Shown: in pieces, positions 6,486 to 33,290 of the stretch
Numbering within the stretch: the stretch's first letter is position 1
How the letters are laid out: each line of letters starts with the position of its first letter
From: a bacterium
GTDB lineage: Bacteria > Patescibacteriota > Microgenomatia > UBA1406 > GWC2-37-13
NCBI GenBank assembly: GCA_021833625.1
Contig: JAKBEU010000002.1
Coordinates: 323,332-356,621 of the forward strand
Length of the DNA: 33,290 nucleotides
Direction: 5' to 3'
Notes under the pieces: generated by a model
Seen by the model: the letters and a program-made list of their open reading frames with translations, nothing else
Told to the model about the DNA's origin: nothing
Databases searched by the model: none
Program-made: the position numbers and the translations under genes

Positions 6486-6531
6486 TGGATTAAATGGCGG
6501 ATGGACAAATAATCATTTAGAATAAGGGAAT

Positions 6532-8326: not shown

Positions 8327-8332
8327 AACACC

Positions 8333-16729: not shown

Positions 16730-16739
16730 CATCGTAGGG

Positions 16740-17285: not shown

Positions 17286-17309
17286 GATCTAACAAATTAA
17301 ATTTTCACT

Positions 17310-17498: not shown

Positions 17499-17860
17499 AT
17501 ATACAACACACTGAACCGATGAAAATCCTCCACGACTGTTTAAAGCCGGAACCGCTATCCAAATGCTGTGCAGCTGTAATTATCCAGGGAGGTATATGTT
17601 CGGCATGCAAAGGACATATCGGACCAGAAGTGAAGAGATTCACCTATGGGGCCGGATGGGTTGAAGAACAGGGAGACGGCAACTATGACGTTTTCTCTGG
17701 AGAACCATGGGGATATACACGACTTGTAACCGCGAGAGTGTATGTCAGCAATGGAAAGCCTGTTTGTTGTTTTTTTGAATGTGGAAAGTATGCGAAGAAA
17801 TATAAGGATTTTAAATGCAAGCATGTTCGACTGTTAGAAAAACATTTGAAAAATATATGA
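17495..17860 (+). CDS. Hypothetical protein with cysteine-rich zinc-ribbon-like N-terminus
   Basis: A 121-residue protein. Cysteines in KCCAAV and GGICSACKG (about residues 23-40) look like a small zinc ribbon. A second cysteine set (CCFFECGKY, KCKHVRLLEKHL) lies near the end and includes a His. A good ribosome site (AAAGGAG) precedes the start. The stop overlaps the ATG of the ERF gene (ATGA), indicating coupling. A role with nucleic acid is possible from the zinc motifs, but no specific function is visible. Confidence 0.6.
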   Translation: MNIQHTEPMKILHDCLKPEPLSKCCAAVIIQGGICSACKGHIGPEVKRFTYGAGWVEEQGDGNYDVFSGEPWGYTRLVTARVYVSNGKPVCCFFECGKYAKKYKDFKCKHVRLLEKHLKNI

Positions 17861-18486: not shown

Positions 18487-18510
18487 AAAGCATTGTTCGT
18501 TAAGCAAATC

Positions 18511-18533
18511 ATCGGGGAGATTCGCTCCCCGGT
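18511..18533. terminator. Strong GC hairpin after the ERF gene
   Basis: CGGGGAG and CTCCCCG form a perfect 7-bp stem with a 5-nt loop (ATTCG), extended by two weaker pairs. It lies 25 nt after the ERF stop in a 189-nt gap. No T-run follows. The rest of the gap (to 18675) is A/T-rich and holds no gene I can support. It may contain the promoter of the next gene. Confidence 0.45.
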
Positions 18534-18675
18534 AGATTCCAGCCGTTTACATATTAAAAGGTTGAAATTTACACAAATTATCAGTTTCGATAAAAGTTTA
18601 TTAAAGATCTATGAGAAAGGAAATAAATGAAAGTAAGGGATAGGTAAGAGTTATAAAAAATTTCATAAAGCTGGT

Positions 18676-19767: not shown

Positions 19768-19769
19768 CT

Positions 19770-20027
19770 ATGGACGATCAACCAATGGATGAGGAATTAA
19801 TATCCGGAGAAGAGGAACGCGATGAAGAGCGACCAAGCCTCGCATCGCAGAAACAATTGAGATATATCGGTATGATGCTTACCTACAAAAAGAAAGAAAA
19901 GGAAGTGATTTACAAATTTTTTGGAGTGGATACGATGAAAAAGCTAACGAAAAACCAGGCTAAGAAAGTCATTGATCAGCTCCAAAAATATCCGGATGTT
20001 ATAAAACCTAAATTTTTACAACCATGA
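19770..20027 (+). CDS. Hypothetical small phage protein with ASQKQLRYI motif
   Basis: An 85-residue protein. The N-terminus is acidic (MDDQPMDEELISGEEERDEERP). The rest has SLASQKQLRYIGMMLTYKKKEKE and LTKNQAKKVIDQLQKYP, a two-helix motif that recurs in small phage proteins near recombination genes. I chose ATG 19770 because the upstream alternative lies within the previous gene. The stop overlaps the next start. No function can be assigned. Confidence 0.55.
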   Translation: MDDQPMDEELISGEEERDEERPSLASQKQLRYIGMMLTYKKKEKEVIYKFFGVDTMKKLTKNQAKKVIDQLQKYPDVIKPKFLQP

Positions 20028-20356
20028 TTAAACTAACACAGGAAAACGCGATCCTCGAGGAATTGAAGAAAGCCGGAAGTATGGGATTACACCCCTCATG
20101 CTTTATTGAATTTCTACATATTTATCAGTATTCTGCGCGGATAAATGGATTACGGAAAAGATTTAACTGTCAATGTAAAAATGGCGTTCATTGCGTTTCA
20201 AGCGAACATATCATAAATCGAAGGCTACCAAATGGGACCACTAAATTTTTCTACGAAAAATCACCGGACATCAATTGGGAAGGCATGCGCAAGGAAATAA
20301 TACAGAAAAGGGACGAACAAGAGATTTTACCACAGGGAAATTTATTTAATTATTAA
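20024..20356 (+). CDS. Hypothetical protein with winged-helix-like fold
   Basis: A 110-residue protein. ENAILEELKKAGSMGLHPSCF followed by YSARINGLRKRFNCQCKNG and a strand pair ending in NGTTKFFYEK follows the layout of winged helix-turn-helix domains: helices that read I..LR..G, then a beta wing ending in a Tyr-rich strand. It is probably a small DNA-binding phage protein. It is coupled to the previous gene by ATGA. Confidence 0.5.
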   Translation: MIKLTQENAILEELKKAGSMGLHPSCFIEFLHIYQYSARINGLRKRFNCQCKNGVHCVSSEHIINRRLPNGTTKFFYEKSPDINWEGMRKEIIQKRDEQEILPQGNLFNY

Positions 20357-20369
20357 CTTATTTATACCT

Positions 20370-20663
20370 ATGAGAAAAGGAAACAACCACAAGAGAGATT
20401 TTTATAAACGTCAAGTTGAAACTCTGGAGCGGGAACGGCAAGCGTACAAAGAAAAATACGAAAAATTAGAAAATGATCGCTTAAAGAAGATAGAGGAAGG
20501 AAAAAAGATAAAACGATATGATGCGACTGTATATTGCACCAATTGTATGCATGTAAATAATGTTTCCGTTCCGGAAGGATTGGCAATTAAAGATGGAGAT
20601 TGCACCTATTGCCGTGTTAAGTGCTGCCTTTTAAAAGTTGTCTCCTATCCTGGAAAGATATAA
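20370..20663 (+). CDS. Coiled-coil plus zinc-ribbon protein
   Basis: A 97-residue protein. Residues 1-50 are highly charged and helical (ETLERERQAYKEKYEKLENDRLKKIEEG), fitting a coiled coil. Residues 56-85 contain CTNCMHVN and CTYCRVKC, two CxxC pairs of a zinc ribbon. It is one of several zinc-ribbon proteins in this module. The function is unknown. The RtcB gene begins 5 nt after its stop, so they probably share a transcript. Confidence 0.55.
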   Translation: MRKGNNHKRDFYKRQVETLERERQAYKEKYEKLENDRLKKIEEGKKIKRYDATVYCTNCMHVNNVSVPEGLAIKDGDCTYCRVKCCLLKVVSYPGKI

Positions 20664-20668
20664 TTCTT

Positions 20669-21862
20669 ATGAAAGTCATATCAACAGAACAGAAACCAAT
20701 TAAATTATGGTTAGATGATATAGAAGATGGAGCATTAGAACAGGCTAAGAATTTAGCCAATCTTCCTTTTACGTTTCGACATGTTTCTATAATGCCGGAC
20801 TCCCATCAGGGATACGGTATGCCCATAGGGGGAGTATTGGCAACCGAAGGCGTGGTGATCCCTAATGCGGTAGGAGTTGATATCGGGTGCGGTATGTGTG
20901 CGGTTGAAACGTCTTTGAAAGAAATCGACACGGACACCTTAAAAAAAATAATGGGAGAAATACGCAAAGCTATTCCCGTTGGCTTCGGACATCATAAGGA
21001 AAAACAGAACGAAAAATATATGCCTCGGATTGACAATTCTGCTTACTATTCAAAAGAAAATTTAGATGTAAAATTTAAGATTTGTGGTAGGGAGTATAGT
21101 AGTGCTCTTACTCAGATAGGTACACTTGGAGGAGGTAATCATTTCATCGAGATACAAAAAGGGAATAACGGCCATATCTGGATTATGATACATTCCGGTA
21201 GCCGGAACTTTGGGTATAAGGTCGCCCATTACTACAATGAACTGGCGATCTCCCTAAATGAACTATGGCATACTTCCATTCCGAAGGAATGGGAACTTGC
21301 TTTTTTGCCTCTTGATAGTCAAGAGGGACAGGATTACTTACGGGAAATGCAGTACTGCGTTGAATTTGCCCTTGCTAACCGCAAGCTGATGATGGATAGA
21401 ATTATCGATATATTCAACGGGGTGTTCGATAACGCTATCTCAAAGTATCCCATGATTAATATAGCTCACAATTATGCGGTAATGGAAAATCATTTCGGAA
21501 AGAACGTCATGGTCCACCGAAAAGGAGCAACTAAGGCAACCCTGAACACAATAGGGATTATTCCAGGATCGCAAGGCACTGCCTCTTATATCGTCAGAGG
21601 TAAGGGAAACCCAGAGAGTTTTCAATCTTGTTCACATGGAGCAGGACGAAAGATGGGACGAAAAGCGGCACAAAGGACGCTTAATTTAGAAGAAGAAAAG
21701 AAAAAGCTTGATGATATGGGAGTAATACATGCGATACGAGGAATACAAGACCTAGATGAAGCGCCAGGAAGTTACAAAGATATTTCTGTTGTCATGAAAA
21801 ACCAGGAAGATCTTGTCGATATTTTAGTGGAATTAAAGCCTTTGGCGGTAATTAAAGGCTAA
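20669..21862 (+). CDS. rtcB: RNA-splicing ligase RtcB family protein
   Basis: A 397-residue protein that matches RtcB, the GTP- and Mn-dependent ligase joining RNA 2',3'-cyclic phosphate (or 3'-phosphate) and 5'-OH ends. Motifs in order are MPDSHQGYGMPIGGV (about 42-56), VGVDIGCGMC (D71, C74, metal binding), GTLGGGNHFIEI, HSGSRNFG, VHRKGATKA, PGSQGTASYIVRGKGN, and CSHGAGRKMGR with the His that is guanylylated. All expected ligands are present. I start at MKVIST (20669). It sits within the phage early module. An RNA repair role, for example mending tRNAs cut by a host defence nuclease, is inference. Confidence 0.9.
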   Translation: MKVISTEQKPIKLWLDDIEDGALEQAKNLANLPFTFRHVSIMPDSHQGYGMPIGGVLATEGVVIPNAVGVDIGCGMCAVETSLKEIDTDTLKKIMGEIRKAIPVGFGHHKEKQNEKYMPRIDNSAYYSKENLDVKFKICGREYSSALTQIGTLGGGNHFIEIQKGNNGHIWIMIHSGSRNFGYKVAHYYNELAISLNELWHTSIPKEWELAFLPLDSQEGQDYLREMQYCVEFALANRKLMMDRIIDIFNGVFDNAISKYPMINIAHNYAVMENHFGKNVMVHRKGATKATLNTIGIIPGSQGTASYIVRGKGNPESFQSCSHGAGRKMGRKAAQRTLNLEEEKKKLDDMGVIHAIRGIQDLDEAPGSYKDISVVMKNQEDLVDILVELKPLAVIKG

Positions 21863-21883
21863 TTATCATTTATTTATTCAAAT

Positions 21884-22642
21884 ATGAATCAATTGGCTGA
21901 GATAGTAAAAACAAGCGGTTTAGAAATTGTTGAAGGTCAAAGTATTATTGACAGATTTGGAGATTACGAATCTATTGCAAAAGAATGGAAAATAAAAGCA
22001 GAACAGATTGTTGTAACAGATAGAAGCCAAACGACAGAAATGGCAATGGCAAAAGAAGCTCGAAAAAAGTTCTCAGAATTGAGATGCGATGTGGAAAAAG
22101 CAAGAAAACAGATGAAAGAACAAAGCTTGAGAAAGGGACAAGCAATTGATGCAATCGCCCGATTCTTAACTTCACTTATTTCGCCAATCGAAGACCATCT
22201 AAGGGCTCAGGAAGATTTTATTAAAATTGAAGACGCTAAAAAAGCAGAAGAGGCACGAATTGCCGCAGAAAAAAAGATCGAAGAGGAAAAAATAGCAAAA
22301 GAAAAAGCAGAGAAAGAAGCCCAGGAGAAAATAAGACTAGAAAACGAAAAGTTAAGGATCGAAGCTGACAAATTACAAAAGGAAAAAGAAAAAATCCAAA
22401 GGGAACTTGAATCCAAAAAATTGGAAGAAGCAAGGAAGAAAAAAGAAGCTGAGGATCTAGAAAATAAGAGAATAATGGAAGAAAAGAAAAGCTTAGAAGC
22501 AGAGATGAAAAAGCCGGATGAGCAAAAATATAATGCCTACATTCAGAAACTACTTGATATTAAAGTTCCGATAATCAAAAACACAGAAATAAACAATAAA
22601 GTTAATGGTGTTCGCTCATTGTTGAAGAAAGAAATTCAATAA
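21884..22642 (+). CDS. Long coiled-coil phage protein (DUF1351-like)
   Basis: A 252-residue protein. The N-terminal 110 residues have KKFSELRCDVEKARKQMKEQSLRKGQAIDAIARFLTSLISPIEDHLRAQEDF, the pattern of DUF1351-like proteins found beside phage recombinases. Residues 110-210 are an almost unbroken Glu/Lys/Ala coiled coil (EEKIAKEKAEKEAQEKIRLE). The short C-terminal part is globular (YNAYIQKLLDIKVPII). It probably assists the ERF system, by gene neighbourhood only. Confidence 0.6.
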   Translation: MNQLAEIVKTSGLEIVEGQSIIDRFGDYESIAKEWKIKAEQIVVTDRSQTTEMAMAKEARKKFSELRCDVEKARKQMKEQSLRKGQAIDAIARFLTSLISPIEDHLRAQEDFIKIEDAKKAEEARIAAEKKIEEEKIAKEKAEKEAQEKIRLENEKLRIEADKLQKEKEKIQRELESKKLEEARKKKEAEDLENKRIMEEKKSLEAEMKKPDEQKYNAYIQKLLDIKVPIIKNTEINNKVNGVRSLLKKEIQ

Positions 22643-22647
22643 TATTT

Positions 22648-23007
22648 ATGTGGTACAAAAACCTAAAAAACAAATTTCACGCAAAAAAGACGGAATATAA
22701 AGGAATTAAATATGCAAGTGGGAGAGAAGCGAAAAAGGCTTGGGATTTGGATATGCTGGTCCGAGGGGAAGTAATTCTCAGATGGGAACGTCAGGCGAAA
22801 GAAGAATTATTTGGGATAAATAAGTCAAAAATATGCTCCTACTATGTCGATTTCAAAATTTTCCATGTCGATGGAACGATTGAATACCTTGAAATTAAAT
22901 CAAAGCCTACCGCGACACCGGAGTGGAAGCTTAAATGGAAACTGCTTGAGGATAAATATAAACAAGAGGTTTTGGATAAAAAAATCATTTTGACAGTTGA
23001 ATACTGA
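22648..23007 (+). CDS. DUF1064-type phage endonuclease
   Basis: A 119-residue protein with the order of the DUF1064 family, a PD-(D/E)XK fold found in phages: AKKTEYKGIKYASGREAKKAWDLDML (conserved Glu), LRWERQAKEELF, YYVDFKIF (Asp), then TIEYLEIKSKPTATPEWKLKWKLL with the E-x-K pair. It is probably a resolvase or nuclease acting on recombination intermediates. It lies 5 nt after the coiled-coil gene and 2 nt before the next gene. Confidence 0.8.
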   Translation: MWYKNLKNKFHAKKTEYKGIKYASGREAKKAWDLDMLVRGEVILRWERQAKEELFGINKSKICSYYVDFKIFHVDGTIEYLEIKSKPTATPEWKLKWKLLEDKYKQEVLDKKIILTVEY

Positions 23008-23009
23008 AT

Positions 23010-23282
23010 ATGCAGAAATTACAGGTTTCCGAGTGGGTTGAGCACGACCAATTCGGATCATGGTTCAATAAAAAGAGGCTCCTTGAAAATAGGGAACATG
23101 CATTAAAATGGGAGCATAGAGGAGAAGAAAAAAAGAAGAAAATCATAGTAAAGAAAAAAAGTTATTCCGGAGAATGCAAAATATGTGGTACAACAGTCAC
23201 TTCATCGTTTGAGCTTACAGATACGATGTTCAAGGGAAAATGGGTCAAGGGTTGCGCTCGCTGTTTTCTTTCTTCAATCTAG
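23010..23282 (+). CDS. Hypothetical zinc-ribbon protein, last gene of the early module
   Basis: A 90-residue protein. The N-terminus has Trp-rich, charged sequence (WVEHDQFGSWFNKKRLLENREHALKWEH). The C-terminus has a zinc ribbon (CKICGTT at about 58-64 and CARC near 83-86). It is the last plus-strand gene before the convergence with the lysis genes. No function can be assigned. Confidence 0.55.
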   Translation: MQKLQVSEWVEHDQFGSWFNKKRLLENREHALKWEHRGEEKKKKIIVKKKSYSGECKICGTTVTSSFELTDTMFKGKWVKGCARCFLSSI

Positions 23283-23460
23283 CCCTGAACACTCTATAAG
23301 AAATGAACTTATTGAAAAGTCCGCATTTTTTAGCTTGTTTGATACCTCTTCGGTATTGCCGGAGCAGTATGTTTCTCATTGGGACGATATGTGCCATTGA
23401 TAAAATACCTACCGTGATAAAAACCTGTGAATATGGCAAGGTTAGCCAAATGCCGGACAA
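23245..23460 (-). CDS. Doubtful small membrane protein in the convergent gap
   Basis: A 71-residue frame that begins at TTG 23460 with GAGGT a few nt upstream. It has one hydrophobic segment (WLTLPYSQVFITVGILSMAHIV) and a basic tail. It overlaps the previous plus-strand gene by 38 bp and follows the holin by 43 nt, so it could be a fourth lysis-cassette gene. A non-ATG start, the overlap and the lack of recognisable homology keep this uncertain. Otherwise 23283-23503 holds nothing I can support: I found no terminator with a T-run in either direction. Confidence 0.25.
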   Translation of the reverse strand: MSGIWLTLPYSQVFITVGILSMAHIVPMRNILLRQYRRGIKQAKKCGLFNKFISYRVFRARLKKENSERNP

Positions 23461-23503
23461 TTACCTCTTTCTTTACTGGAGAGGGCTGAGCTAACCGTTC
23501 CAT

Positions 23504-23749
23504 TTACTTACCTCCCGCTTTTGAAGCAATTTTAGAGACTGCGCTGAAGGCAAGGGATACTTCAATCGCCTGTTTCGCATGGTTAAGAAGCATATTGCCA
23601 AGCTCTGCAGGAATGAATGAGAATCCGAATGCCACTATAAATGACAAAGCAAACTTGAGGCGCGAATCAAGGTCGGGTTTGAAGAAGCTGATAACATTTA
23701 CCGTTCCAAATCCGATAAGTCCTAGGAATCCGAATGAATATATGTCCAT
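23504..23749 (-). CDS. Holin-like membrane protein
   Basis: An 81-residue protein with two predicted membrane helices (YSFGFLGLIGFGTVNVISFF at about 4-23, and KFALSFIVAFGFSFIPAELG at about 32-51) and an amphipathic Ala/Lys-rich tail ending in SKAGGK. Size, topology and position at the end of a lysis cassette with an endolysin fit a holin, which permeabilises the inner membrane at the end of infection. No specific holin family is recognised. Confidence 0.65.
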   Translation of the reverse strand: MDIYSFGFLGLIGFGTVNVISFFKPDLDSRLKFALSFIVAFGFSFIPAELGNMLLNHAKQAIEVSLAFSAVSKIASKAGGK

Positions 23750-23768
23750 AAAAATAAATAATTAATAA

Positions 23769-24104
23769 TTACTTGAGAAAATGGGTATACAAGCTCTGTA
23801 TTTGCCCTTGCATCGTTGTTACTTGCGTCTGATATCCCTTGAATGACTCTTGGAACGTTGTATGATCTTTTACGAGTTGATCAATTACTTCTTCATATTT
23901 TTCATGATCTTCTTTGTTTTTTTCTGCCCTGACAGTCAGGGAGTTAATAGAACTTTGGAGAGGAGATAGCTTAGAAGTAAGCCAAAGATTCCCAAACATA
24001 ATGAAAAGATTAGCGATTGCAGTAATTGCCAATCCGAGGATGATTTTGACCGCGTTTTCTTGTACCATTTTGAGTAGCCATCCATGTTTGTCATTCGTGT
24101 TCAT
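23769..24104 (-). CDS. Single-pass membrane protein with coiled coil, lysis cassette
   Basis: A 111-residue protein. A membrane helix (AVKIILGLAITAIANLFIMFGNLWL, about residues 18-42) is followed by a coiled coil of about 60 residues (LSPLQSSINSLTVRAEKNKEDHEKYEEVIDQL). The layout recalls XhlA/haemolysin-type holin accessories and some spanin-like proteins. It overlaps the endolysin gene by 4 nt (ATGA) and precedes the holin by 19 nt, so it is translated with them. Which lysis role it has is inference. Confidence 0.6.
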   Translation of the reverse strand: MNTNDKHGWLLKMVQENAVKIILGLAITAIANLFIMFGNLWLTSKLSPLQSSINSLTVRAEKNKEDHEKYEEVIDQLVKDHTTFQESFKGYQTQVTTMQGQIQSLYTHFLK

Positions 24105-24742
24105 GCTGATGTTACATAATTCCTAATTTTCTCTTTCATAGCCTCAATCCTATCTTGGCACTCTTTATCTTTATTTGCTAATAGTCTATCTGTATCGGTT
24201 TGGAGCGTCTTTATGAACAAATCCTTACCTTCAATCGCTTTATTTAAGGTATCAATTTCTTTTTTTAATTTATCTGTTTCGGTTGGTTCTGAAGGGATAG
24301 GTGGTTTAGAGAGATTTTCAGTCAGATAAGGCCATGGATTGCATGTACCGCCATATCCATCCTGCTTATTCCTGGGCTTTCTAAAGTATCCCCAATGAAG
24401 ATGTGGACCTGTCGAGTTTCCGGTATTATCTGAAATCCCTATCTGTTGTCCTTCAAGGATTTTGTCTCCCGGATTTACATTGAATGATTTCAGATGCGCT
24501 AGTATCGACCCTTCGACATCGTTTTCGATTTTCACGTACATGCCGTAGCCGTATTCATCGTAAGCCGCTTCAATTACCGTTCCATCATGCGGAGCGACTA
24601 TCGGAGTACCTGTTGGTGTTCCATAATCAACGCCATTATGTCCTTTATAGCCAAATTGCGCGTACATGTGGATACCATTTAAGACAAGATCGTTTCCCCA
24701 TTCTTGGGTTACCGGAAACGTACCTAAAAAGGGTCTTCTCAT
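24101..24742 (-). CDS. M23-family endopeptidase (endolysin) with coiled-coil tail
   Basis: A 213-residue protein. The LytM/M23 zinc peptidase domain covers about residues 1-145: HNGVD (H35, D39), the LAHL His at 83, and STGPHLHWG (H114, H116), all required ligands. The tail from about residue 150 is a coiled coil (KLKKEIDTLNKAIEGKDLFIKTL). It would cut peptide cross-links in peptidoglycan. There is no signal peptide, so it depends on the holin. The order endolysin, membrane coiled-coil, holin on one strand is a classical lysis cassette. A -10 element stands 8 nt before its start. Confidence 0.88.
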   Translation of the reverse strand: MRRPFLGTFPVTQEWGNDLVLNGIHMYAQFGYKGHNGVDYGTPTGTPIVAPHDGTVIEAAYDEYGYGMYVKIENDVEGSILAHLKSFNVNPGDKILEGQQIGISDNTGNSTGPHLHWGYFRKPRNKQDGYGGTCNPWPYLTENLSKPPIPSEPTETDKLKKEIDTLNKAIEGKDLFIKTLQTDTDRLLANKDKECQDRIEAMKEKIRNYVTSA

Positions 24743-24750
24743 ATATATAA

Positions 24751-24756
24751 ATTGTA
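24751..24756 (-). promoter_or_regulatory. -10 element before the endolysin gene
   Basis: TACAAT on the minus strand ends 8 nt before the endolysin ATG. The -35 region is weak (TAAATC at 17 bp). The spacing matches the other leaderless-type starts of the window. The lysis genes may therefore have their own promoter besides any late read-through. Confidence 0.4.
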
Positions 24757-24818
24757 TGGGGAATAGTTGACAGGATTTACACCCACGAACTGATTTCGTT
24801 TGAATTTAAGCATCTATA

Positions 24819-24847
24819 TTGACAATTATGGTTAGTTTATGTAGTAT
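24819..24847 (+). promoter_or_regulatory. Strong sigma70-type promoter of a moron-like unit
   Basis: A perfect TTGACA (24819-24824), a 17-bp spacer, and TAGTAT (24842-24847), then 7 nt to ATG 24855. It faces away from all surrounding late genes. The position predicts a leaderless transcript. Confidence 0.7.
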
Positions 24848-24854
24848 TAGGGTA

Positions 24855-25172
24855 ATGAAAAAGCTTTTTGGGACAATCTGCATCGTATTATTCATTGTTC
24901 TCGCTATATTTTCTGCGTGGACGTATTATGAGAAGGAAATGTATAAAAATTCCTTGGATTCAATGAACAAAAGTTGGGAGGCGGTATCAGCTTATGATTT
25001 TAACTACATCAATAAACTTGCGGATTTTATAAAGCTTCAAAATACGATTCATCCGGTAAATTTCACGAAAGAAGAGCAAAAAGCCTTCGATGAACTGAAA
25101 AAAATAAAAGAAGATCGCGGAGCGTTTATCAGAAAATTCCCCAACATTCAGCCCATTTATCAGGTAAGATAA
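24855..25172 (+). CDS. Moron-like membrane-anchored protein
   Basis: A 105-residue protein that starts at MKKLFGTIC. One N-terminal membrane segment (LFGTICIVLFIVLAIFSAWTYY, about residues 4-25) is followed by about 80 mostly helical, charged residues expected outside the membrane (SMNKSWEAVSAYDFNYINKLADFIK, EEQKAFDELKKIKEDRG). The frame can be extended upstream, but the promoter's -35 and -10 lie in that extension, so ATG 24855 is the likely start. It is the only plus-strand unit inside the minus-strand late block, with its own consensus promoter, like phage morons that alter the lysogen. Exclusion of other phages is a guess. Confidence 0.65.
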   Translation: MKKLFGTICIVLFIVLAIFSAWTYYEKEMYKNSLDSMNKSWEAVSAYDFNYINKLADFIKLQNTIHPVNFTKEEQKAFDELKKIKEDRGAFIRKFPNIQPIYQVR

Positions 25173-25176
25173 CTAT

Positions 25177-25251
25177 ATGGTTGGGTTTTTGATAGGTGCA
25201 GGTACTATTTTTTTATGTTGGCTTATTTGGGTGTTATTCGGATGCAAATAA
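25177..25251 (+). CDS. 24-residue hydrophobic membrane peptide
   Basis: ATG 25177 to TAA 25249-25251 encodes a 24-residue peptide that is almost entirely hydrophobic (VGFLIGAGTIFLCWLIWVLF) and ends in Gly-Cys-Lys. It starts 4 nt after the moron-like gene and ends exactly where the next minus-strand gene ends, so the unit fills the gap with no spare bases. Size and composition fit a small transmembrane peptide. No ribosome site is obvious, and translation would rely on coupling. Confidence 0.45.
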   Translation: MVGFLIGAGTIFLCWLIWVLFGCK

Positions 25252-26691
25252 TCACCTATTTGGATTCGTTACTATCCCTATTTTTGCTGCGTTTCTAAAG
25301 TAATTATTTCCCGGTATTTTAGGAATATTAAATTTCTGCATATTTTTCCCTACCGCTCTCAATCCTTTACTAGCAACCTTTATAAATCGCGGATCATTTA
25401 CAACTTGTTCTGCCACAAATCCGCCGATGGCTCCTGGTGCACCGCTTAATATGCCTCCAATTCCTGCTCCTCCAAGCTTTGAGAAATTGAATACTTGTCT
25501 ATTTGCCTCTCTTGCAGCAGAATTTGTCAATATTTTTTCCATTCCTTTTGCCATTCCATATTCACGTCCAAGCTTTGCCAATCGCGGATCAGAATCATTT
25601 ATTGTTTTTCTGAGGACATCTCTGACTGATTTTGCTCCTTGCGCTGTTCCTGATCCTTTTGCATCGAGCATAAATTGTGCTTGTGGAATATCCTGATCTA
25701 ATGCTTTTCGGTATTTAGTCAATTTATCGATTCCTACATCAACATAGGGCATTTTTCTTGTCCCACCAGCCATATCAATGAGTTGTTTTCTTCTTCTTAT
25801 AAGCTCTGCAGCTTGTGCTTTTGCGGCATTACTATATGCATTTTCTCCGGTTGTCAATTCGATTATGTTTTTGTCGATATCATTAATAACTTGTCCCAAA
25901 TTAGTTGCTTTTCCGCTTTTGAGTGAAATAGTATCATATTTTGAGCCTATTGCTTTTTTTATATCTCCTGCAATTTCAGGTGATCTATCATACAGATTGT
26001 ATTTATCAATGAAATCTGCTGTTTTCATCCCTGATTTTGCTTCAAGTTTGGCCTGCATGAGTGGATTGCCAATGCCTCTTGTAATAAGCTGTTCTCCTGA
26101 TTTCTCGACATTTTTCCCTAATTTTCTGAATGCGTTCTGTATTGGGGTCGTTTTTATAACTTTTCCGGGAAGGGCTAAAGGATCGAGCGTCTCTCCGATT
26201 CCAGCTGCGACTTTGCCAGCGTTTTCAAGCGCTCCAATTTTGCTTACCGCGCCAGCGCCTTTGAGTGCACTTCCGATTCCTCCAGCCACCATTGAAGCAT
26301 CTAGAGCGACCCCTGCAGGATCTTCATAGAAAGTATTTCCTATTTTATTTATTCCATTACCGACATCACCCTTTGCAAAATCTGATATTCCATATTTTTG
26401 ATCGTATGATTTTGCCAATTGTTTTGCTCTATTGCTGTCTAATGTGGGCTCACCCATCACTACATTTTTAGCTGCTTCCGCTGCATCGAGTCCAAGATTG
26501 GCTATATTAGCTACTGTATTTTTCTCCATATCCGGATTAAATACATTTACTGCTGCGCTTCCAATACCTCCCACTAAATTTGCGCCACTTTTAACGGTGT
26601 TACCAAGAAAACCACTGATAGTTTTCTTATCTGGCGTAAATCCTATTTTACTTTGTCTCGGCTGCTGTAATCTATCTGGTATAAATGGCAT
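25252..26691 (-). CDS. Large phage protein of the late module, possible virion/ejection protein
   Basis: A 479-residue protein with no named family that I recognise. It is rich in Ala, Gly and Lys, mostly helical, and has glycine-zipper-like hydrophobic stretches (SMVAGGIGSALKGAGAVSKIG at about 136-156, GAGIGGILSGAPGAIGGFV near residue 415). Such segments occur in internal virion proteins that line ejection channels. A soluble helical middle includes LIRRRKQLIDMAGG and RKTINDSDPRLAKLGREY. It starts 2 nt after the stop of the upstream late gene. The ejection role is inference from composition and place. Confidence 0.6.
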   Translation of the reverse strand: MPFIPDRLQQPRQSKIGFTPDKKTISGFLGNTVKSGANLVGGIGSAAVNVFNPDMEKNTVANIANLGLDAAEAAKNVVMGEPTLDSNRAKQLAKSYDQKYGISDFAKGDVGNGINKIGNTFYEDPAGVALDASMVAGGIGSALKGAGAVSKIGALENAGKVAAGIGETLDPLALPGKVIKTTPIQNAFRKLGKNVEKSGEQLITRGIGNPLMQAKLEAKSGMKTADFIDKYNLYDRSPEIAGDIKKAIGSKYDTISLKSGKATNLGQVINDIDKNIIELTTGENAYSNAAKAQAAELIRRRKQLIDMAGGTRKMPYVDVGIDKLTKYRKALDQDIPQAQFMLDAKGSGTAQGAKSVRDVLRKTINDSDPRLAKLGREYGMAKGMEKILTNSAAREANRQVFNFSKLGGAGIGGILSGAPGAIGGFVAEQVVNDPRFIKVASKGLRAVGKNMQKFNIPKIPGNNYFRNAAKIGIVTNPNR

Positions 26692-26693
26692 GG

Positions 26694-28289
26694 TTATGAA
26701 ATCGTTTGATAAAGTGTCGGGTCAAATTCATTCTCGGGAATAGTACCCGTTTCACCTGTCTTCAGGTTTCGCACTCTTATTTGCTGAGATCCATTCGGCG
26801 AAGCGCCAGCGCCTTGATTAAGATTTGTCTTTAGTTCTTCAAGTACACCTCGCATTTGCTCCGGAGATAAGTTCTGGCCTAGTGAAGAAGCTGCCTTTTC
26901 AAGCATTTTTGCTTCGTAGTCAGAAATCTGTCCGGAACCTTTAAGCATCTGTCTTCCTTCAAGTGAAAGCATAGATTTTAATTGATCATAATTATTCTGA
27001 AGCAACTGCGCGTCAGACCCTGGAAGTGCGTTTAACGGATTATATTTGCCATAGCCGCTTATTGACCCAACATCTCCAGACAGCAATTTATCGATTAACC
27101 CTATAGCACTTTGTGCTCCTGATGTCTTTCCTGTCGCTGCTCCTATTTTTGTATCAAAAGCGTTTGGATTTTGTGTTCTATATATAAAATCATTCATCGT
27201 TTCAGGTTTTCCTGTAGCCATAAATCCTGCTGATAATTGTGGATTTGCTGTAGCCTGTTCTTTTTGGAACGTGAGCTTCTGCTGCTCTCCTGCAAGCCGT
27301 AATGAATCAAACTTGTCGGCAATATCCTGTTTTGCTGTTTGAGCATCAAGATACGCCTTTCTGAGAGCCGCTCCTTTTGCTCCTTCATTATCTCGAAGCA
27401 ATTCATTTATTTTCCGTATTGTTTCCTGCAGTTTGACGTCTTCGTCCTCAATAAGCCGTGCAGCATCCAGTTTCGCGCTTGAAATTTTATCATCGATTTC
27501 TTGAACCTTATTTGCAAGTGTTAATTGTGTTGTGTTTTGTGTCCTATTAAATTCCGTATCGGCATTTTCATTTCCCTGAGTAAATGAACCAGTACCATAT
27601 GAATCTATAGTGCCAAGCGCGGCATATTGTTTTTCGCGCTGTGCGTCTGTCTGACGCTTGTTTTCCATATTTGCTCTCAATACACCACCATAAGTGTTCG
27701 TTGCGTCTGCTTTTGCCGTTACTCCTTGTTTTTCAAATTGAGCTATATCAGCATTTTTTCTGTCCGCAAACGTCTTGAATGCAGCCTCCGCTGCAGGAAT
27801 ACCTACCCTTAAGTCAGTTGCTGTATTGTCATAAAGAGTTTTTGCATTATTTTCTGTCTCAGTTTGTCCGGCTTCAATTAAAGCTAGTCGTTTTTTCTCT
27901 GCATCTGAATATGTCGCATTTTGTTTATCGTAAAGCTCCAGTTGTTTTTTAAGATAATCCTGCATCGTTGTTGGAACTGAAGAAGTAGTAGGCTTTGACG
28001 CATTTGGATCTGCTTTCGTTGTTCCATCACTATAGGTAATTGTTCCGTTATTATTTGACCTAATAGGAGTCGGAGCTGGCTGATCAGCCCACGTTGTTGA
28101 CGGATTAGTCCAAGGATTCGTTGCCTTTTGAGTCGAAACTGACTGTTGTGGTGTCCGTATATTTGATACGGTACTTTTAACACTACCAGTAGTGTTTCCA
28201 CCACCAACAGGACTACTTTGACCATATCCTGCTTTCGTTTCCCAAGGGTTAACAGGTTTCTTTAATTGTGAACTAAATATATTTGCCAT
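26694..28289 (-). CDS. Large coiled-coil phage protein of the late module
   Basis: A 531-residue protein. The first 110 residues are low-complexity (Ser, Thr, Gln, Pro, Gly) and probably disordered. Residues 115-340 are long helices and coiled coil (YLKKQLELYDKQNATYSDAEKKRLALIE, KVQEIDDKISSAKLDAARLIEDEDVKL). The C-terminal part is globular (LLSGDVGSISGYGKYNPLNALPG, SLEGRQMLKGSGQISDYEAKMLEKAASSLG). The SDYEAKMLEKA stretch recurs in phage internal or tail proteins. It is probably a virion component. It begins 15 nt after the 908-residue gene and ends 2 nt before the next. Confidence 0.6.
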   Translation of the reverse strand: MANIFSSQLKKPVNPWETKAGYGQSSPVGGGNTTGSVKSTVSNIRTPQQSVSTQKATNPWTNPSTTWADQPAPTPIRSNNNGTITYSDGTTKADPNASKPTTSSVPTTMQDYLKKQLELYDKQNATYSDAEKKRLALIEAGQTETENNAKTLYDNTATDLRVGIPAAEAAFKTFADRKNADIAQFEKQGVTAKADATNTYGGVLRANMENKRQTDAQREKQYAALGTIDSYGTGSFTQGNENADTEFNRTQNTTQLTLANKVQEIDDKISSAKLDAARLIEDEDVKLQETIRKINELLRDNEGAKGAALRKAYLDAQTAKQDIADKFDSLRLAGEQQKLTFQKEQATANPQLSAGFMATGKPETMNDFIYRTQNPNAFDTKIGAATGKTSGAQSAIGLIDKLLSGDVGSISGYGKYNPLNALPGSDAQLLQNNYDQLKSMLSLEGRQMLKGSGQISDYEAKMLEKAASSLGQNLSPEQMRGVLEELKTNLNQGAGASPNGSQQIRVRNLKTGETGTIPENEFDPTLYQTIS

Positions 28290-28304
28290 ATTATTTAATA
28301 GAAA

Positions 28305-31031
28305 TTACCACGATCCACCACCGCCGCCTCCACCCCCACCACCTGCTTTATAAATAGGTGGCCGATAAACTGGTTTAGGTGCTGGTTTTGGCGCGGGAGT
28401 CGGAGCGGGCTTCGGTGTTGGAGCAGATGATCCGCCCCACGATCCACCACCGCCGCCTCCACCCCCACCACCGCTTGATTTGGATGGAGGAGTAAATCCT
28501 TTTGCCGCAGGAGCGACAAAGGTATTAGTCAATGTCTTATATATATTGTTTGCTACATTTGCCGTGCTGTTTGCGATGTTCCCAACACTTTTAAATATAT
28601 TCGGTGTCTGAGGCTGTGGAATAGTCGTTGCCAACTGAGGAATTACATATTTATTTGCTGCAACTGGTGTATTTACCTGTGCATATGATTTTTGTGCGGC
28701 AGGAGAAGCCTTTCCAACAGGCGCTTGCCAAGTATAGTCAGATTTAAGTACATCCGGAACGCTTGAGCGAACTGATTGATTGTATTGATTCTGGTAATAA
28801 ATAGGATCCACATCCTCCCATTGGTACTCTTGACCATCGAAAGTCTGCTTGTAGGTCATTGTGGGCTTATCATGACCAGGAATAATCGGATATTGCTCAT
28901 TTATGTATGAACGATACATTTCAGTCGCTGGTTTAGCCAGATAGGTGTTTCCAAAAACATGGGCAATCTTATTTGGATCCTGGAAGAACGCTTTAGTAAA
29001 TAGGGAAGTATCAAGCGCTCCTTTATAGTTTTTGTCTATTCCGGGATTAAGATCTGTCTTATACATTTCCGCTCCTCCAAGCTTGAAGAACGCATCTCTT
29101 GTGTCATTTACTGGTTTTGATTGCATAAGGTCAGGATTCATCATATCCTGGCCGCTTCCGGTGTCCTCACCAAGCTTGCTTGTTCCTTTAATGACATTCA
29201 TTCCGATCTTTTTGAATATGTTTGACTCTGCGCCAGTAAGTCCCGGAACGTCTTGTTTCATGGTCTGTACTCCGGTTCCTGGTGCTGCTGTAGCCTGTTC
29301 AAAACCGTTCGTATAGGATATCTTGTTATCTGGTCCTGTTGGCGTGGCTGAAGAATCCGCACCATAAACAGGTTTTATCATGCTAAACTCGTTAAATGGC
29401 TTTGCAACAGCATTTAATCCTTGTTTGAATACATTACCCATTACGTTCAGGGTGCTGGCTGTTTTTTGTTTTGCCTTATTCAAGTCACCTCGAAGTAATT
29501 CGGATACACCAAAATCGATATTTTTTCCTGTAGGATTTGTAGTATCAATTTTATTCGCTACTGTCTGTCCTAGATTTCTGAATGTATTATTTCTCACCTG
29601 AGTCGAAGCTATAGGATTTCCTTTTAGTGCTTCTGTTACTCCCAGATCGAAATTGCCTGTTGGGTTTGCTGCATCGATTGTCGCGGCAAGTTTTTTCCCT
29701 GCGGATGGCAAGTCACCTCGTAAAGCTTCGGAAACTCCGATATCAGTTTTTCCAGTTAAATTTGCCTGGTCTATCGCATTTGCCGCGGTATTTCCTAATC
29801 CTTGGATTGTGCTTGTAACCTTCTGAGGTACTTCAGCTATCGGGTTTGATTGCTGAACCTGATTCAATCTTTGAAAATTCGGATCATTAGCCAAATCACC
29901 TGAGGGAGCAGTTGAGCCTGGTTTCGGCTGGTCTTTGGCGATACTCGTTGACGTATAATCCTGCGGTCTGTTTGCAACTTCTTTTATGAAATTGCGCAAA
30001 TCAGCAAGTTGCCCGTCTTTTGTAATATATTGGTTATCAAGATGGGGACCTGTAGAATGACCTGTCGTTCCTGTAATACCGATAGGATCGTTTGATTTTA
30101 TCTGTTGGCCTTCCTGCGCAAGTACTCTTGATAAATGGTTATAAATAAGCGTTTCTCCTGTGGGAAGAGTAATAAACACTCTATTTCCGAATGTCGGATC
30201 GCCTTCGATTATTTTTGAAACGACACCATCGAAAACTGAAGAAAGAGTGGGCTGGTCTGCCAAATCTCCTGTTCCGATATCCATAGCTCCATGGATTATT
30301 CCCGGATAAAGGACTGGATCGGTAGTATCAAATTCTCCAGTAATATTCTCAGTTGACCGTTTCCCTCCAAAAAGCTTAGTAATATAGTCATTTAGGTTTT
30401 GTATTCCGTCCGGAGTCGTCTGATATCCTCCGTATCTCATAGAACCATCATTAAAAAGTGTTCGATTATTCGGATATGATGCAATTCCTTGAACATTTGG
30501 TTTTGAAACTAAATTGGGATTCGCCAATTTTGACCAGTCGCCGATTGCCTGTTCCCATGGACTCATATTTGGAGCAGCTTGGACGATCACTCCATTTGAA
30601 TCACGGATTGATCCGTCGGAATATTTTACGTTTCCATTAGCAAGTGAGGCTGTTGGGACAGGCTCCGCATTTGTTATCCCTTGACTTGTAGGTCTATATT
30701 GGGGATGAGTTCCGCTCAATGCTTTTAATATCTGCTGTGTAAATTCATCATTGCTCATTCCTTGAGTATTTTGTCCTCCCGATTGTGCAGGATTATATGG
30801 ATCCATCGGAGTAAACGAAAGCTTTGTTTTTGACGTTTGTTGAACTGATTGGTTGGCTGGTACTATACCTCCCTCAAGTCCGGTTGCGTTCCTTACAGGA
30901 GAGCCACCGATCGTATAAGGAATATTTGAGCCTGTATCATAAGCAATATTGAGTTGAGAACCCTTATTTTTTTTAAGTAGTGAATCAAGTTCTGCGATAT
31001 AATCTTTTGCTTTTGTGAATTGTTTTGGCAT
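28305..31031 (-). CDS. 908-residue virion protein with M23 peptidase domain, internal repeats and poly-Gly tail
   Basis: Residues 1-230 are low-complexity. Residues about 240-345 form an M23-like domain: IHGAMDIGTGD (His and Asp ligands), LIYNHLSRV, and TGHSTGPHLDNQYI. The usual final HxH is HxD here, so catalysis may be altered. Residues about 403-530 hold three imperfect repeats (pattern D.GVSE.LRGDL). After a helical region, the C-terminus has two GGGGGGGGGGSW blocks separated by a Pro/Lys/Ala-rich linker. A peptidoglycan-cleaving virion protein that aids DNA entry is a good guess. It is the first late gene left of the invertible segment. Confidence 0.7.
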   Translation of the reverse strand: MPKQFTKAKDYIAELDSLLKKNKGSQLNIAYDTGSNIPYTIGGSPVRNATGLEGGIVPANQSVQQTSKTKLSFTPMDPYNPAQSGGQNTQGMSNDEFTQQILKALSGTHPQYRPTSQGITNAEPVPTASLANGNVKYSDGSIRDSNGVIVQAAPNMSPWEQAIGDWSKLANPNLVSKPNVQGIASYPNNRTLFNDGSMRYGGYQTTPDGIQNLNDYITKLFGGKRSTENITGEFDTTDPVLYPGIIHGAMDIGTGDLADQPTLSSVFDGVVSKIIEGDPTFGNRVFITLPTGETLIYNHLSRVLAQEGQQIKSNDPIGITGTTGHSTGPHLDNQYITKDGQLADLRNFIKEVANRPQDYTSTSIAKDQPKPGSTAPSGDLANDPNFQRLNQVQQSNPIAEVPQKVTSTIQGLGNTAANAIDQANLTGKTDIGVSEALRGDLPSAGKKLAATIDAANPTGNFDLGVTEALKGNPIASTQVRNNTFRNLGQTVANKIDTTNPTGKNIDFGVSELLRGDLNKAKQKTASTLNVMGNVFKQGLNAVAKPFNEFSMIKPVYGADSSATPTGPDNKISYTNGFEQATAAPGTGVQTMKQDVPGLTGAESNIFKKIGMNVIKGTSKLGEDTGSGQDMMNPDLMQSKPVNDTRDAFFKLGGAEMYKTDLNPGIDKNYKGALDTSLFTKAFFQDPNKIAHVFGNTYLAKPATEMYRSYINEQYPIIPGHDKPTMTYKQTFDGQEYQWEDVDPIYYQNQYNQSVRSSVPDVLKSDYTWQAPVGKASPAAQKSYAQVNTPVAANKYVIPQLATTIPQPQTPNIFKSVGNIANSTANVANNIYKTLTNTFVAPAAKGFTPPSKSSGGGGGGGGGGSWGGSSAPTPKPAPTPAPKPAPKPVYRPPIYKAGGGGGGGGGGSW
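28308..28343. repeat. 36-bp direct repeat, copy 1 (poly-Gly-Ser-Trp)
   Basis: This is identical to 28437-28472. It starts CCACGATCCACCACCGCC and ends CCCCCACCACC. On the minus strand it encodes the run of ten Gly plus Ser-Trp at the extreme C-terminus of the 908-residue protein. Confidence 0.85.
28437..28472. repeat. 36-bp direct repeat, copy 2
   Basis: This is identical to 28308-28343. It encodes the internal Gly10-Ser-Trp block. Perfect identity over 36 bp, including synonymous positions, implies recent duplication or ongoing exchange, and the copies could delete or expand by slippage. Confidence 0.85.
29440..29823 (-). repeat. Three tandem protein repeats inside the 908-residue protein
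   Basis: Three units of about 40 residues share the pattern LG.T.AN.ID..N.TG..D.GVSE.LRGDL..A..K. They contain GKTDIGVSEALRGDL, GNFDLGVTEALKGNP and GKNIDFGVSELLRGDL. The repeats are diverged in DNA as well, so they are older than the 36-bp repeats. Confidence 0.7.
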
Positions 31032-31091
31032 AGTGTTAGATAGCTAAAATAATCTATTGCCAATATTTATTTGCGGCTTCTTGGCTGACCG

Positions 31092-31120
31092 TTTTCCTTA
31101 TAGTTAAATGATAAGGAAAA
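31092..31120. repeat. Perfect hairpin between the 908-residue gene and the left inverted repeat
   Basis: TTTTCCTTAT and ATAAGGAAAA form a 10-bp perfect stem with a 9-nt loop. It lies in the 148-nt gap that separates the invertible segment from the next late gene. Neither strand has a T-run after the stem. It could be a weak terminator, a transcript-processing site or a protein-binding dyad. The rest of the gap (31032-31179) shows only A/T-rich sequence. Confidence 0.45.
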
Positions 31121-31179
31121 AGGATATATATATTTACAGTCAGGGGTAATTTAGGAAAGATAATATAGTCTTTCATCTG

Positions 31180-31208
31180 CGTATCCAATCTCTACAGACT
31201 CGAACTAT
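31180..31208 (+). repeat. Left 29-bp inverted repeat of the invertible segment
   Basis: It begins CGTATCCAATC and ends ACTCGAACTAT. It is a perfect reverse complement of 32978-33006 over 29 bp, with mismatch at the next base inside. The centre reads TCTCTACAGA, an imperfect dyad (TCTnTAnAGA) centred on TA at the middle of the repeat, as expected for a recombinase site with a 2-bp crossover core. That last reading is tentative. Confidence 0.85.
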
Positions 31209-31222
31209 TTCTAATGTTTACT

Positions 31223-31729
31223 ATGGCAAAAACAGTTGAAGTATTAGTGGTTGCTGCAGGAGGAGGTTCAGGTGTTGGCTATTCAGGAGGCGGTGGTGGA
31301 GGAGGCTGTTGTACAGACACAAATTCTGGTGGAAATGGACACGGGGGGAATGGCGGAGGAATAGTATTCATACTTGCTTCTAACTTTATTTTGACTGGAA
31401 GTATAGTTTCAGGAGGCAACAATGGACTTGCGGGAGACATTTCTGGTGGAGCTCCTCACAATGGTTCAGGAGGCGGAGGCGCTGGAGGCTCTATATTAAT
31501 AAAAACAAAAGTGGGGACTTTGGGAACAAATCTTATTACTGCTCCAGCTGGAACAGGTCCCGCTCCAGTAAACGATGGAGGAAGAGGAGGAAATGGCGGA
31601 GTTGGAAGAATACACCTTGATTATAAAGACTCATATTCAGGAGTCACTACTCCCACTATAGATGTCACACAAGACTCAAAGCTTGACTATCCTAAAAGTG
31701 GTGGACTATTTTTACAGGAATTTATATGA
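31223..31729 (+). CDS. Glycine-rich tail/adhesin-like protein, opposite-facing allele
   Basis: A 168-residue protein from ATG 31223 (MAKTVEVLVVAAGGGSG); a second in-frame ATG at 31214 adds three residues. It is rich in Gly with several GGGGG runs and a Cys pair. From GGGIVFI onward it aligns with the C-terminal 150 residues of the 401-residue protein on the other strand, ending in the shared GRIHLDYKDSY and GGLFLQEFI. It lacks the first 250 residues of that protein. It faces against the late genes and has no ribosome site, so it is probably silent in this orientation. Poly-Gly folds resemble phage adhesin tips, by inference. Confidence 0.7.
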   Translation: MAKTVEVLVVAAGGGSGVGYSGGGGGGGCCTDTNSGGNGHGGNGGGIVFILASNFILTGSIVSGGNNGLAGDISGGAPHNGSGGGGAGGSILIKTKVGTLGTNLITAPAGTGPAPVNDGGRGGNGGVGRIHLDYKDSYSGVTTPTIDVTQDSKLDYPKSGGLFLQEFI

Positions 31730-32927
31730 ACTCCTGCAAAAAAAGACCGCCCATTTTTGGGTAATCAAGAGAAATATCTTGCGTTGCATTAATTGTTGGA
31801 TTTGTAATGCCAGTATAGGAATCCTTATAGTCAAGGTGTATTCTCCCAACTCCACCATTCCCTCCAGCATAAGAGCCACCAGTTCCTCCACTTCCTCCTG
31901 AAGCCACTATAAGATTTGTCCCAAGTGTTGCTGTTTGACATTTGAGCAAAACAGAGCCTCCCGCTCCTGCTCCACCTCCTGAATTAGATGAACCAGCATT
32001 TCCTCCATTCCCACCATTTGTCACTATAGAACCAGAAATTACTATTGATTTTGCAATAATTAGAACTATTCCTCCTCCACTTCCACCTGCACCTGTGGTT
32101 CCAGAAGAGTCTTTTGTCGCTCCTCCCCCTCCGCCACCAAAAACCATTAAGGTAAGTCCTGCGTTTCCTGCTACATTACCTCCTTGACCTGGGGCGGAAG
32201 GTGCTGCATAACCTCCTCCAGTTACTCCTGCTCCACCATTTCCTCCTCCACCGCCTGCGTCTGTGGCTCCGCCCGAAATATATCCTCCCCCCCCGCCATT
32301 CCCATTTGGAGTATATTGAGCTGAACGAGCATTTGCAGTCCCCTCACCACTATCTCCCTGCCTTGGAGTAGACCCAATATATCCGTTCCCTCCCCAGAAC
32401 CCACCGACGTTTGAAGCTCCAGCAACAGGGGAGCTTGAAGAACTTCCTCCAGTTGTTCCATTGGCGTTTATATTCCCATTTACTGTAACGCTTCCCTTTG
32501 CCATTAAAACCGTTATTCCTCCCACCGTTCCATTCCAAGCCTTTGTTGTTAGGGTGACACCACCGTTTATAGTAATATTATTGTTTTGCTTAATCACAAT
32601 TACCTGAGCACATGAAGCGCCACTGCTTACGTAGGTATTTTGAAGCAAATGTTGAAGAGTAATCGTTCCAGCCACATATCCAGCAATTTTGTTCAGTTCA
32701 TATTCTCCAACGTTTGTTCCTCTTGTTTGATGAATGAGAACGAGTTGTCCCGGTGCAAAAGCAGCGTTTGTTGCAGACAAAGAATTTGAACCAGCAGAGC
32801 CAGCACAAGCGCTATCAATTGGAGCGTCAGTAGTATTCCCCGATATGGTTAAATCTGCATCAGCGGCATTACCAAAGCCATACAACCATTTGTCGGTATC
32901 ATCTCCTCTAAATTTCCTTTGTCCCAT
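31722..32927 (-). CDS. Glycine-rich tail/adhesin-like protein, in-line allele
   Basis: A 401-residue protein. Residues 1-150 form a beta-rich part (MGQRKFRGDDTDKWLYGFGN, APGQLVLIHQTRG, NNNITINGGVTLTTKAW). Residues 150-330 are dominated by Gly-rich runs (GNGGGGGYISGG, VFGGGGGGATKD, GGNGGNAGSSNSGGG). The conserved end is GRIHLDYKDSYTG...GGLFLQEFI. Poly-Gly arrays of this kind form receptor-binding tips in some phage adhesins (T-even-like gp38 type), so a host-recognition role is likely but inferred. A good ribosome site (AGGAG) stands 6 nt before the ATG. It is preceded by a 34-codon ORF and a tail-fibre-like gene. Confidence 0.78.
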   Translation of the reverse strand: MGQRKFRGDDTDKWLYGFGNAADADLTISGNTTDAPIDSACAGSAGSNSLSATNAAFAPGQLVLIHQTRGTNVGEYELNKIAGYVAGTITLQHLLQNTYVSSGASCAQVIVIKQNNNITINGGVTLTTKAWNGTVGGITVLMAKGSVTVNGNINANGTTGGSSSSSPVAGASNVGGFWGGNGYIGSTPRQGDSGEGTANARSAQYTPNGNGGGGGYISGGATDAGGGGGNGGAGVTGGGYAAPSAPGQGGNVAGNAGLTLMVFGGGGGGATKDSSGTTGAGGSGGGIVLIIAKSIVISGSIVTNGGNGGNAGSSNSGGGAGAGGSVLLKCQTATLGTNLIVASGGSGGTGGSYAGGNGGVGRIHLDYKDSYTGITNPTINATQDISLDYPKMGGLFLQEFI

Positions 32928-32928
32928 A

Positions 32929-33033
32929 TTATCTCCTAATCGTTGTCAAACTGACAACAACGCGTGAAGCAACGTATATAGTTCGAGTCTGTAGAGATTG
33001 GATACGTGAGGTAGAAAAATTAAATAAATTCAT
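32929..33033 (-). CDS. 34-residue ORF that spans the right inverted repeat
   Basis: ATG 33033 lies 2 nt after the stop of the tail-fibre-like gene, and the TAA is 1 nt before the ATG of the glycine-rich gene, so it fills the gap exactly. The peptide starts MNLFNFSTSRIQSLQTRTI and ends SRVVVSLTTIRR. The inverted repeat encodes RIQSLQTRTI in its middle. After inversion the same frame would continue as SNVYYGKNS and stop inside the start of the other glycine-rich gene. It may be a translational coupler rather than a functional protein. Confidence 0.5.
   Translation of the reverse strand: MNLFNFSTSRIQSLQTRTIYVASRVVVSLTTIRR
32978..33006 (-). repeat. Right 29-bp inverted repeat of the invertible segment
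   Basis: On the plus strand it begins ATAGTTCGAGT and ends GATTGGATACG. It is a perfect reverse complement of 31180-31208. It lies within the 34-codon ORF, 50 nt upstream of the in-line glycine-rich gene. Confidence 0.85.
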
Positions 33034-33035
33034 TG

Positions 33036-33254
33036 TTATAAATCCTGTCCAACTGTATAACCATGAAAAACACCGTTTGTCGCGTCCGCAACCATTATTC
33101 CAAATGTATCTTTTCGATTTTTTCCAGTCGTTAATGTCGGAGCTGATCCACCAGCCCATCTAATTTGAGTCGTTATTGTATGGGTTCCGCCTCCTGCAGC
33201 TGCGGTTATATCTACAGCTGTCCCTGCCTGTGCATTTGCAACAGTCGTTGCCAC
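33036..33254 (-). CDS. C-terminal end of a tail-fibre-like protein, 5' end unclear at window edge
   Basis: About 72 residues can be read from GTG 33254. The segment IRWAGGSAPTLTTGKNRKDTFGIM...GYTVGQDL has the pattern W.GG.APTLT..G..D.F.F.....G....G...GQ that ends many phage tail-fibre and tail-spike proteins. The frame continues upstream to an in-frame TAA (33279-33281), with ATG CAA just before that stop. A GTG start gives a very short protein. The alternative is a longer gene broken by a mutation or by an assembly error near the sequence end. Confidence 0.55.
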   Translation of the reverse strand: MATTVANAQAGTAVDITAAAGGGTHTITTQIRWAGGSAPTLTTGKNRKDTFGIMVADATNGVFHGYTVGQDL

Positions 33255-33290
33255 CTTGATAGTTGTGGTACTCGCATTTTATTGCATAAT

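Follow-up and report, generated by a model that had tools for sequence, protein, structure and literature searches.

What is the role of a perfect inverted repeat (IR) that encloses two convergent, glycine-rich tail genes in a prophage of Patescibacteria, and can the enclosed segment be inverted? To our knowledge, hardly anything is known about how phages of the ultra-small Patescibacteria recognize cells, and a cassette that flips would provide a testable handle on host range. The window analyzed here is the whole stretch of 33,290 nt. We assign a probability of roughly 0.55 to the reading that its segment 31180-33006 (1827 bp) is an active or recently active site-specific switch of a tail adhesin, with the recombinase supplied in trans. 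The first-pass annotation of the window had described a tail locus with the architecture of an invertible segment in a Patescibacteria prophage, and this description is supported by our analysis. The features of the locus and of the prophage attachment site are the following:

16657-16730, plus strand: tRNA-Val; its 3' end is attL, with the core TCCTGTCGGAT at 16716-16726 and attR at about 18995-19005 of L006, the second contig of the prophage
28305-31031, minus strand: gene for a 908-aa M23-containing ejection or structural protein (Pfam M23, PHROGs), downstream of the cassette
31092-31120, no strand: perfect 10-bp hairpin TTTTCCTTAT/ATAAGGAAAA in the gap separating the 908-aa gene from the cassette; from direct reading and folding
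31180-31208, plus strand: left IR, 29 bp, CGTATCCAATCTCTACAGACTCGAACTAT; the proposed silent-side site of crossover
31223-31729, plus strand: 168-aa ORF with homology to the 401-aa protein in the C-terminal third of the latter; its 5' end is truncated compared to the family, and it runs antisense to the late operon
31722-32927, minus strand: gene for the Gly-rich tail adhesin of 401 aa, oriented like the late operon; its family comprises proteins of about 370-410 aa
32929-33033, minus strand: candidate 34-codon ORF spanning the right IR, a putative gene
32978-33006, minus strand: right IR, 29 bp, shortly after the adaptor gene; the proposed expression-side site of crossover
33036-33290, minus strand: 3' end of the adaptor or tail fibre gene, which starts at L006:935 (contig C2)

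The end of the window is the end of contig C1, which overlaps the start of contig C2 by 126 bp with a 1-nt homopolymer indel; this overlap identifies L006 (contig C2) as the rest of the prophage. The indel consists of a single T (TTTT vs TTT; window 33279-33290, L006:126-137) inside the 386-aa gene of the right flank and accounts for the break between the contigs at 33279. The prophage is complete, about 35.4 kb in length, podovirus-like and integrated in tRNA-Val, and encodes Erf, a resolvase, terminase, a P22-like portal, capsid, tail proteins, and M23-containing ejection or lysis proteins. Its host belongs to the same class as Ca. Daviesbacteria (Patescibacteria/Microgenomates lineage). As the first-pass annotation had noted, late genes run on the minus strand on both sides of the cassette, and they continue so on L006.

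Several other features of this prophage were recorded. In the early region, a gene for an RtcB RNA ligase occupies window positions 20621-21862. ORF 18676-19767 is an odd fusion of a Lin1244_N-like N-terminus (replication) and a C-terminus that matches a phage transglycosylase family; it contains iteron-like TGTACAGA repeats at 18875-18895 and 19039-19081, a possible origin inside the replication gene. Glycosyltransferase-like and methyltransferase-like genes interrupt the structural operon between its capsid and tail genes (L006:3615-7191), with similar ones in L114, the phage closest by its capsid (69%), and the protein encoded at L006:15895-16809 carries a long run of SAAxSAAx repeats.

The perfect 29-bp repeat of the first-pass annotation was confirmed at the positions given above: the left copy matches the reverse complement of the right one at 29/29 positions, with 1769 nt between them, and the chance expectation for a perfect pair of this length in 33 kb is about 1e-9 by our own rough estimate. 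The 1.1-Mb host genome contains only these two copies, even when 3 mismatches are allowed. In the rest of the prophage, the best likeness to the IR is 18/29, the background level, and nothing similar precedes the other late genes. Each copy lies 5' of its own gene in the sense orientation, at a distance from the start codon of 50 nt for the 401-aa gene and 5-14 nt for the 168-aa ORF; the right copy is 29 bp from the adaptor stop (33036). Inside the IR, no significant dyad was found (best 7/14), and the two copies are thus asymmetric repeated sites, the kind of crossover site expected of a shufflon of the Rin type (see below).

Both ORFs of the cassette are real coding sequences. Over 31180-31729, the plus frame of the 168-aa ORF is interrupted only by the terminal stop, whereas the other five frames contain 5-14 stops each, and its codon-position GC (0.57/0.56/0.21) matches that of the 401-aa gene. 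The residue count of 168 given in the first-pass annotation is correct for the ATG at 31223; an alternative in-frame ATG at 31214 would yield 171 aa. The two genes converge with an overlap of 8 nt (31722-31729) and are 76% identical at the DNA level, with 66% difference at synonymous sites and a dN/dS of about 0.24. Among 57 moderately conserved family positions, 48 are kept in the 168-aa ORF and 51 in the 401-aa copy, compared to an average of 83% in the relatives; the conserved C-terminal positions of the short ORF are accordingly as intact as those of full-length relatives. That both ORFs are coding, with this dN/dS and with the conserved positions retained in the shorter one, argues for a switch.

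The start of the 168-aa ORF is unusual: a regular-expression search for TVEVLVVAAGGG in the retrieved loci matched only the ORF itself. The last six bases of its TTTACT-ATG start context are the same as those of the capsid gene, which counts in favour of the switch; a T-rich, ACT-ATG context is common to several phage genes. We rejected the notion that a missing Shine-Dalgarno sequence marks this ORF as dead, because the phage genes (window 16777-33033 and L006) show no excess of such sequences over random (31% vs 35%).

The perfect identity of the repeats while the synonymous sites of the genes are near saturation implies that the IR is either conserved as a functional site or of separate, recent origin. 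For the same reason, we rejected the idea that the IR is a remnant of the duplication that gave rise to the two genes. An assembly chimera of an inverted copy was rejected as well, given the low identity of the genes and the indel that explains the contig break. A perfect, genome-unique IR located exactly at the borders of the cassette and still identical in its two copies despite the divergence of the genes is a further argument for the switch.

The 401-aa protein has no match in Pfam or PHROGs, and tblastn searches of GenBank phages with both Gly-rich proteins yielded no matches. Relatives were detected by profile search at 38 IMG/VR loci and in Patescibacteria genomes; those inspected are proteins of about 370-410 aa or domains of larger proteins. 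The family (DDTDKW / Gly-rich, about 400 aa) combines an N-terminal domain of about 160 aa with a Gly-rich C-terminus, a layout that the 401-aa protein fits, and its membership in a phage tail-adhesin family is supported. In the AlphaFold2 (AF2) model (pLDDT 76.5), the predicted N-terminal 85 or so residues superpose on phage tail and neck folds (for example, 9n71, with an rmsd of 2.5 A over 80 columns), so that this domain, as modelled, resembles tail-attachment folds; the Gly-rich part is less certain (pLDDT 46-95). In other phages, Gly-rich adhesins are preceded by the same C-terminal module as that of the adaptor encoded upstream here (compare L036, L038 and L039), and this module is common to podovirus-like and siphovirus-like phages. 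Among the loci read in detail, a small adaptor-like tail gene precedes the adhesin in L016, L036 and L039; in L038, the adhesin comes one gene further on. The family is useful in itself for the annotation of phages of candidate phyla.

The 168-aa ORF differs from this layout. Its product aligns only with residues ~250-401 of the longer protein (59% identity to residues 254-401) and lacks the first ~235 residues present in the relatives, including the tail-attachment-like N-terminal domain found in every family member checked. Thus, two convergent, homologous genes are indeed present, as the first-pass annotation had it, but the shorter one does not encode a second complete protein, and the notion of a segment that swaps whole proteins is misleading. 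Without its N-terminal domain, the 168-aa product may be non-functional.

An inverted form of the cassette was not detected in the genomes and contigs searched (its own genome, IMG/VR and 373 genomes of the class), and no DNA-level relative was found among the class genomes. The contig is continuous across both IR copies, which indicates that one orientation dominated the sample. A search for the 29-bp repeat in other phage contigs had been suggested in the first-pass annotation; its exact sequence is absent from IMG/VR. Neither the IR nor a convergent or opposite-strand copy of the adhesin occurs in the ~38 viral contigs that carry members of this family, most of which are too distant for the IR to be expected. 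A scan around the adhesin loci for perfect inverted repeats of at least 16 bp produced one other match, an unrelated repeat cluster in a Patescibacteria genome (L055:2413-3358) that consists of palindromic AAAGGGTCTAACCCTTT repeats. The convergent, IR-bounded arrangement is to date unique among these sequences, and no description of tail-gene inversion in a Patescibacteria phage was found in open-access full text.

In L114 and in the other podovirus relatives L017, L018 and L021, a different fibre C-terminus is followed immediately by a 908-aa-like gene (syntenic with the 908-aa gene in L018, L021 and L114), with no Gly-rich gene and no IR; a search of IMG/VR with the 908-aa protein itself yielded no matches. 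As judged from these gene orders, the position right after the adaptor is where tail phages vary, which is in line with a switch at this site. Direct tandem duplicates of the adhesin occur in L036/L060 and in L085: in L036 (Ca. Daviesbacteria, CP066688.1), two pairs of adaptor and Gly-rich adhesin are encoded in tandem at 5147-8491, and L085 carries two adhesin copies in direct orientation. These are duplicated receptor-binding modules without inversion.

The failure to detect an inverted form, the lack of a dedicated invertase (see below) and of a dyad in the IR, and the truncation of the 168-aa ORF all count against the switch, as do the absence of the IR from the other contigs with the adhesin family, the dominance of one orientation in the sample and the restriction of the attachment-site likeness (see below) to attB. 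The main rival explanation, which we consider unlikely although it deserves serious attention, is that the cassette is a relic, in which the 168-aa ORF is an old, 5'-truncated second copy of the adhesin and the IR is what remains of a past inversion or insertion and has ceased to flip. Such an origin is consistent with the missing N-terminal part, with the absence of a convergent arrangement in the relatives and with the tandem duplicates just described. However, a relic would not be expected to keep the truncated ORF open with its conserved positions intact, or the repeats identical at 29/29 positions despite the divergence of the genes.

Or is the segment a small, non-autonomous mobile cassette that entered between the adaptor and 908-aa genes, with the repeats as its terminal inverted repeats? 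The IR copies are located at the exact ends of the segment, the cassette is absent at the same spot in related phages, and the adaptor and adhesin genes are 108 bp apart here vs 2-7 bp in relatives. Nevertheless, we find this origin quite improbable: no target-site duplication was seen at the cassette borders, no copies of the IR occur elsewhere in the genome or in IMG/VR, and the adhesin accompanies the adaptor in other phages, so that it is not foreign cargo. The presence at a single locus and the lack of target duplication also led us to reject the IR as a dispersed transposon end.

It is still harder to reconcile the data with a cis-regulatory or leader element (promoter, operator or RNA site) that would serve both genes without recombination. 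The placement of each IR copy in the sense orientation 5' of its gene is compatible with such a function, and a 33-nt direct repeat, possibly regulatory, occupies two intergenic positions in L114 (8061-8093 and 11135-11167); yet the distances to the two start codons differ, no promoter-like hexamer pair was called in the sense direction inside the IR, and no similar element precedes the other late genes. Slightly less probable again is gene conversion, with the Erf-type annealing system of the phage transferring sequence from a silent 168-aa donor to the 3' part of the 401-aa gene: an Erf gene is present, and the GGLFLQEFI end is identical in both copies, unlike in the relatives, but the overall DNA identity is only 76%, and the perfect 29-bp IR is left unexplained.

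Returning to the switch, a recombinase would have to act on the repeats. The first-pass annotation had named the lack of any recombinase in the complete phage genome as evidence against its reading; an invertase is indeed lacking, but an Xer-like integrase is present. No small (Hin-family) serine invertase was found among the scanned prophage ORFs or among the resolvase-family matches of the genome, which are two large serine recombinases outside the prophage. No tyrosine recombinase adjoins the variable genes. The sole recombinase found in the prophage is the Xer/XerA-like tyrosine integrase beside attR, about 19 kb from the cassette, and two Xer-like tyrosine recombinases are encoded outside the prophage in the host genome. 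The IR shares the T-arm-like GTTCGAGTC and flanks with the attB in tRNA-Val, beyond 99.5% of random 29-mers (9-17 of 4000 score as well), a likeness that was found after the fact and does not extend to attP. We infer, as a lead, that a recombinase acting in trans, either the prophage integrase or a host Xer protein, is the favoured candidate. The integrase, the likeness of the IR to attB, and the precedent in bifidobacterial phages discussed below all weigh in favour of the switch.

Under the switch model, the late transcript in the present orientation would comprise the adaptor, the putative 34-codon leader (starting 2 nt past the adaptor stop, with its TAA just before the start of the 401-aa gene) and the full 401-aa adhesin, and the 168-aa ORF would be silent because it is antisense to this transcript. 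After recombination between the two IR copies, the 168-aa form would follow the adaptor and the full adhesin would be silent; the 34-codon ORF would acquire a changed C-terminus, its end overlapping the region where the 168-aa ORF starts. As the short form has no N-terminal domain, inversion would alternate between an anchored and a headless adhesin rather than between two equal alleles. Such a switch might affect adsorption by turning the adhesin on and off or by exchanging an anchored form for a free one. Should the cassette flip, inversion would proceed in the absence of a dedicated invertase, and the two states of the switch would be unequal, the tail-attachment domain being lost in one of them. 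The fully specified scenario, in which a temperate phage of Patescibacteria without an invertase of its own flips a tail cassette through its Xer-like integrase or a host Xer protein, at 29-bp sites resembling a tRNA T-arm attachment site, with alternation of anchored and headless forms, is tentative and, taken as a whole, rather unlikely.

In the G segment of Mu, the C segment of P1 and the P segment of e14, the sites for the serine invertases Gin, Cin and Pin are located inside the fibre gene, such that a constant N-terminus is joined to alternative C-termini. The locus described here is similar in that its homologous tail genes converge between short IR in the late region, and also in size, 1827 bp being close to the 1797 bp of the P segment of Escherichia coli e14 (PMC12529663). 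Unlike in those systems, the repeat here precedes the start codon, one copy lacks the N-terminal domain, and the phage has no such invertase. There is no crossover inside the fibre gene, as the right IR lies ahead of the 401-aa start and is spanned only by the 34-codon ORF. The cassette was labelled Mu-G-like in the first-pass annotation, a term that does not hold in the strict sense given the lack of a Hin/Gin-family invertase, of a constant N-terminal part spanning the repeat and of a gix-type dyad. Without such an invertase, an in-gene crossover or a 26-bp dyad-symmetric site, the cassette does not belong to the Gin/Cin/Pin family.

A different comparison is offered by the T-even gp38 adhesins, which are glycine-rich and form a polyglycine-II sandwich (PMC12892980). 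The 401-aa protein, presumed to be a tail-tip adhesin, likewise combines glycine runs and variable stretches; unlike gp38, it carries a tail-like N-terminal domain of its own and is encoded in a podovirus-like operon. It has no sequence match to gp38, which is also absent among the 50 best PDB matches of the model with its uncertain Gly-rich part.

In the Rin shufflon of bifidobacterial prophages, a constant N-terminus of the receptor-binding protein (RBP) is combined with several variable C-termini by a neighbouring armless tyrosine invertase, and inversions are seen between genomes (PMC6109161). The present cassette contains, unlike Rin, one gene pair and one 29-bp repeat and was seen in one orientation; as in Rin, a tyrosine rather than a serine recombinase is the natural candidate. 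The same prophages carry a second inverted locus of structural genes with no adjacent recombinase, for which the authors suggest an invertase acting in trans (PMC6109161), and it is this locus that the cassette resembles in its structural genes without an adjoining recombinase.
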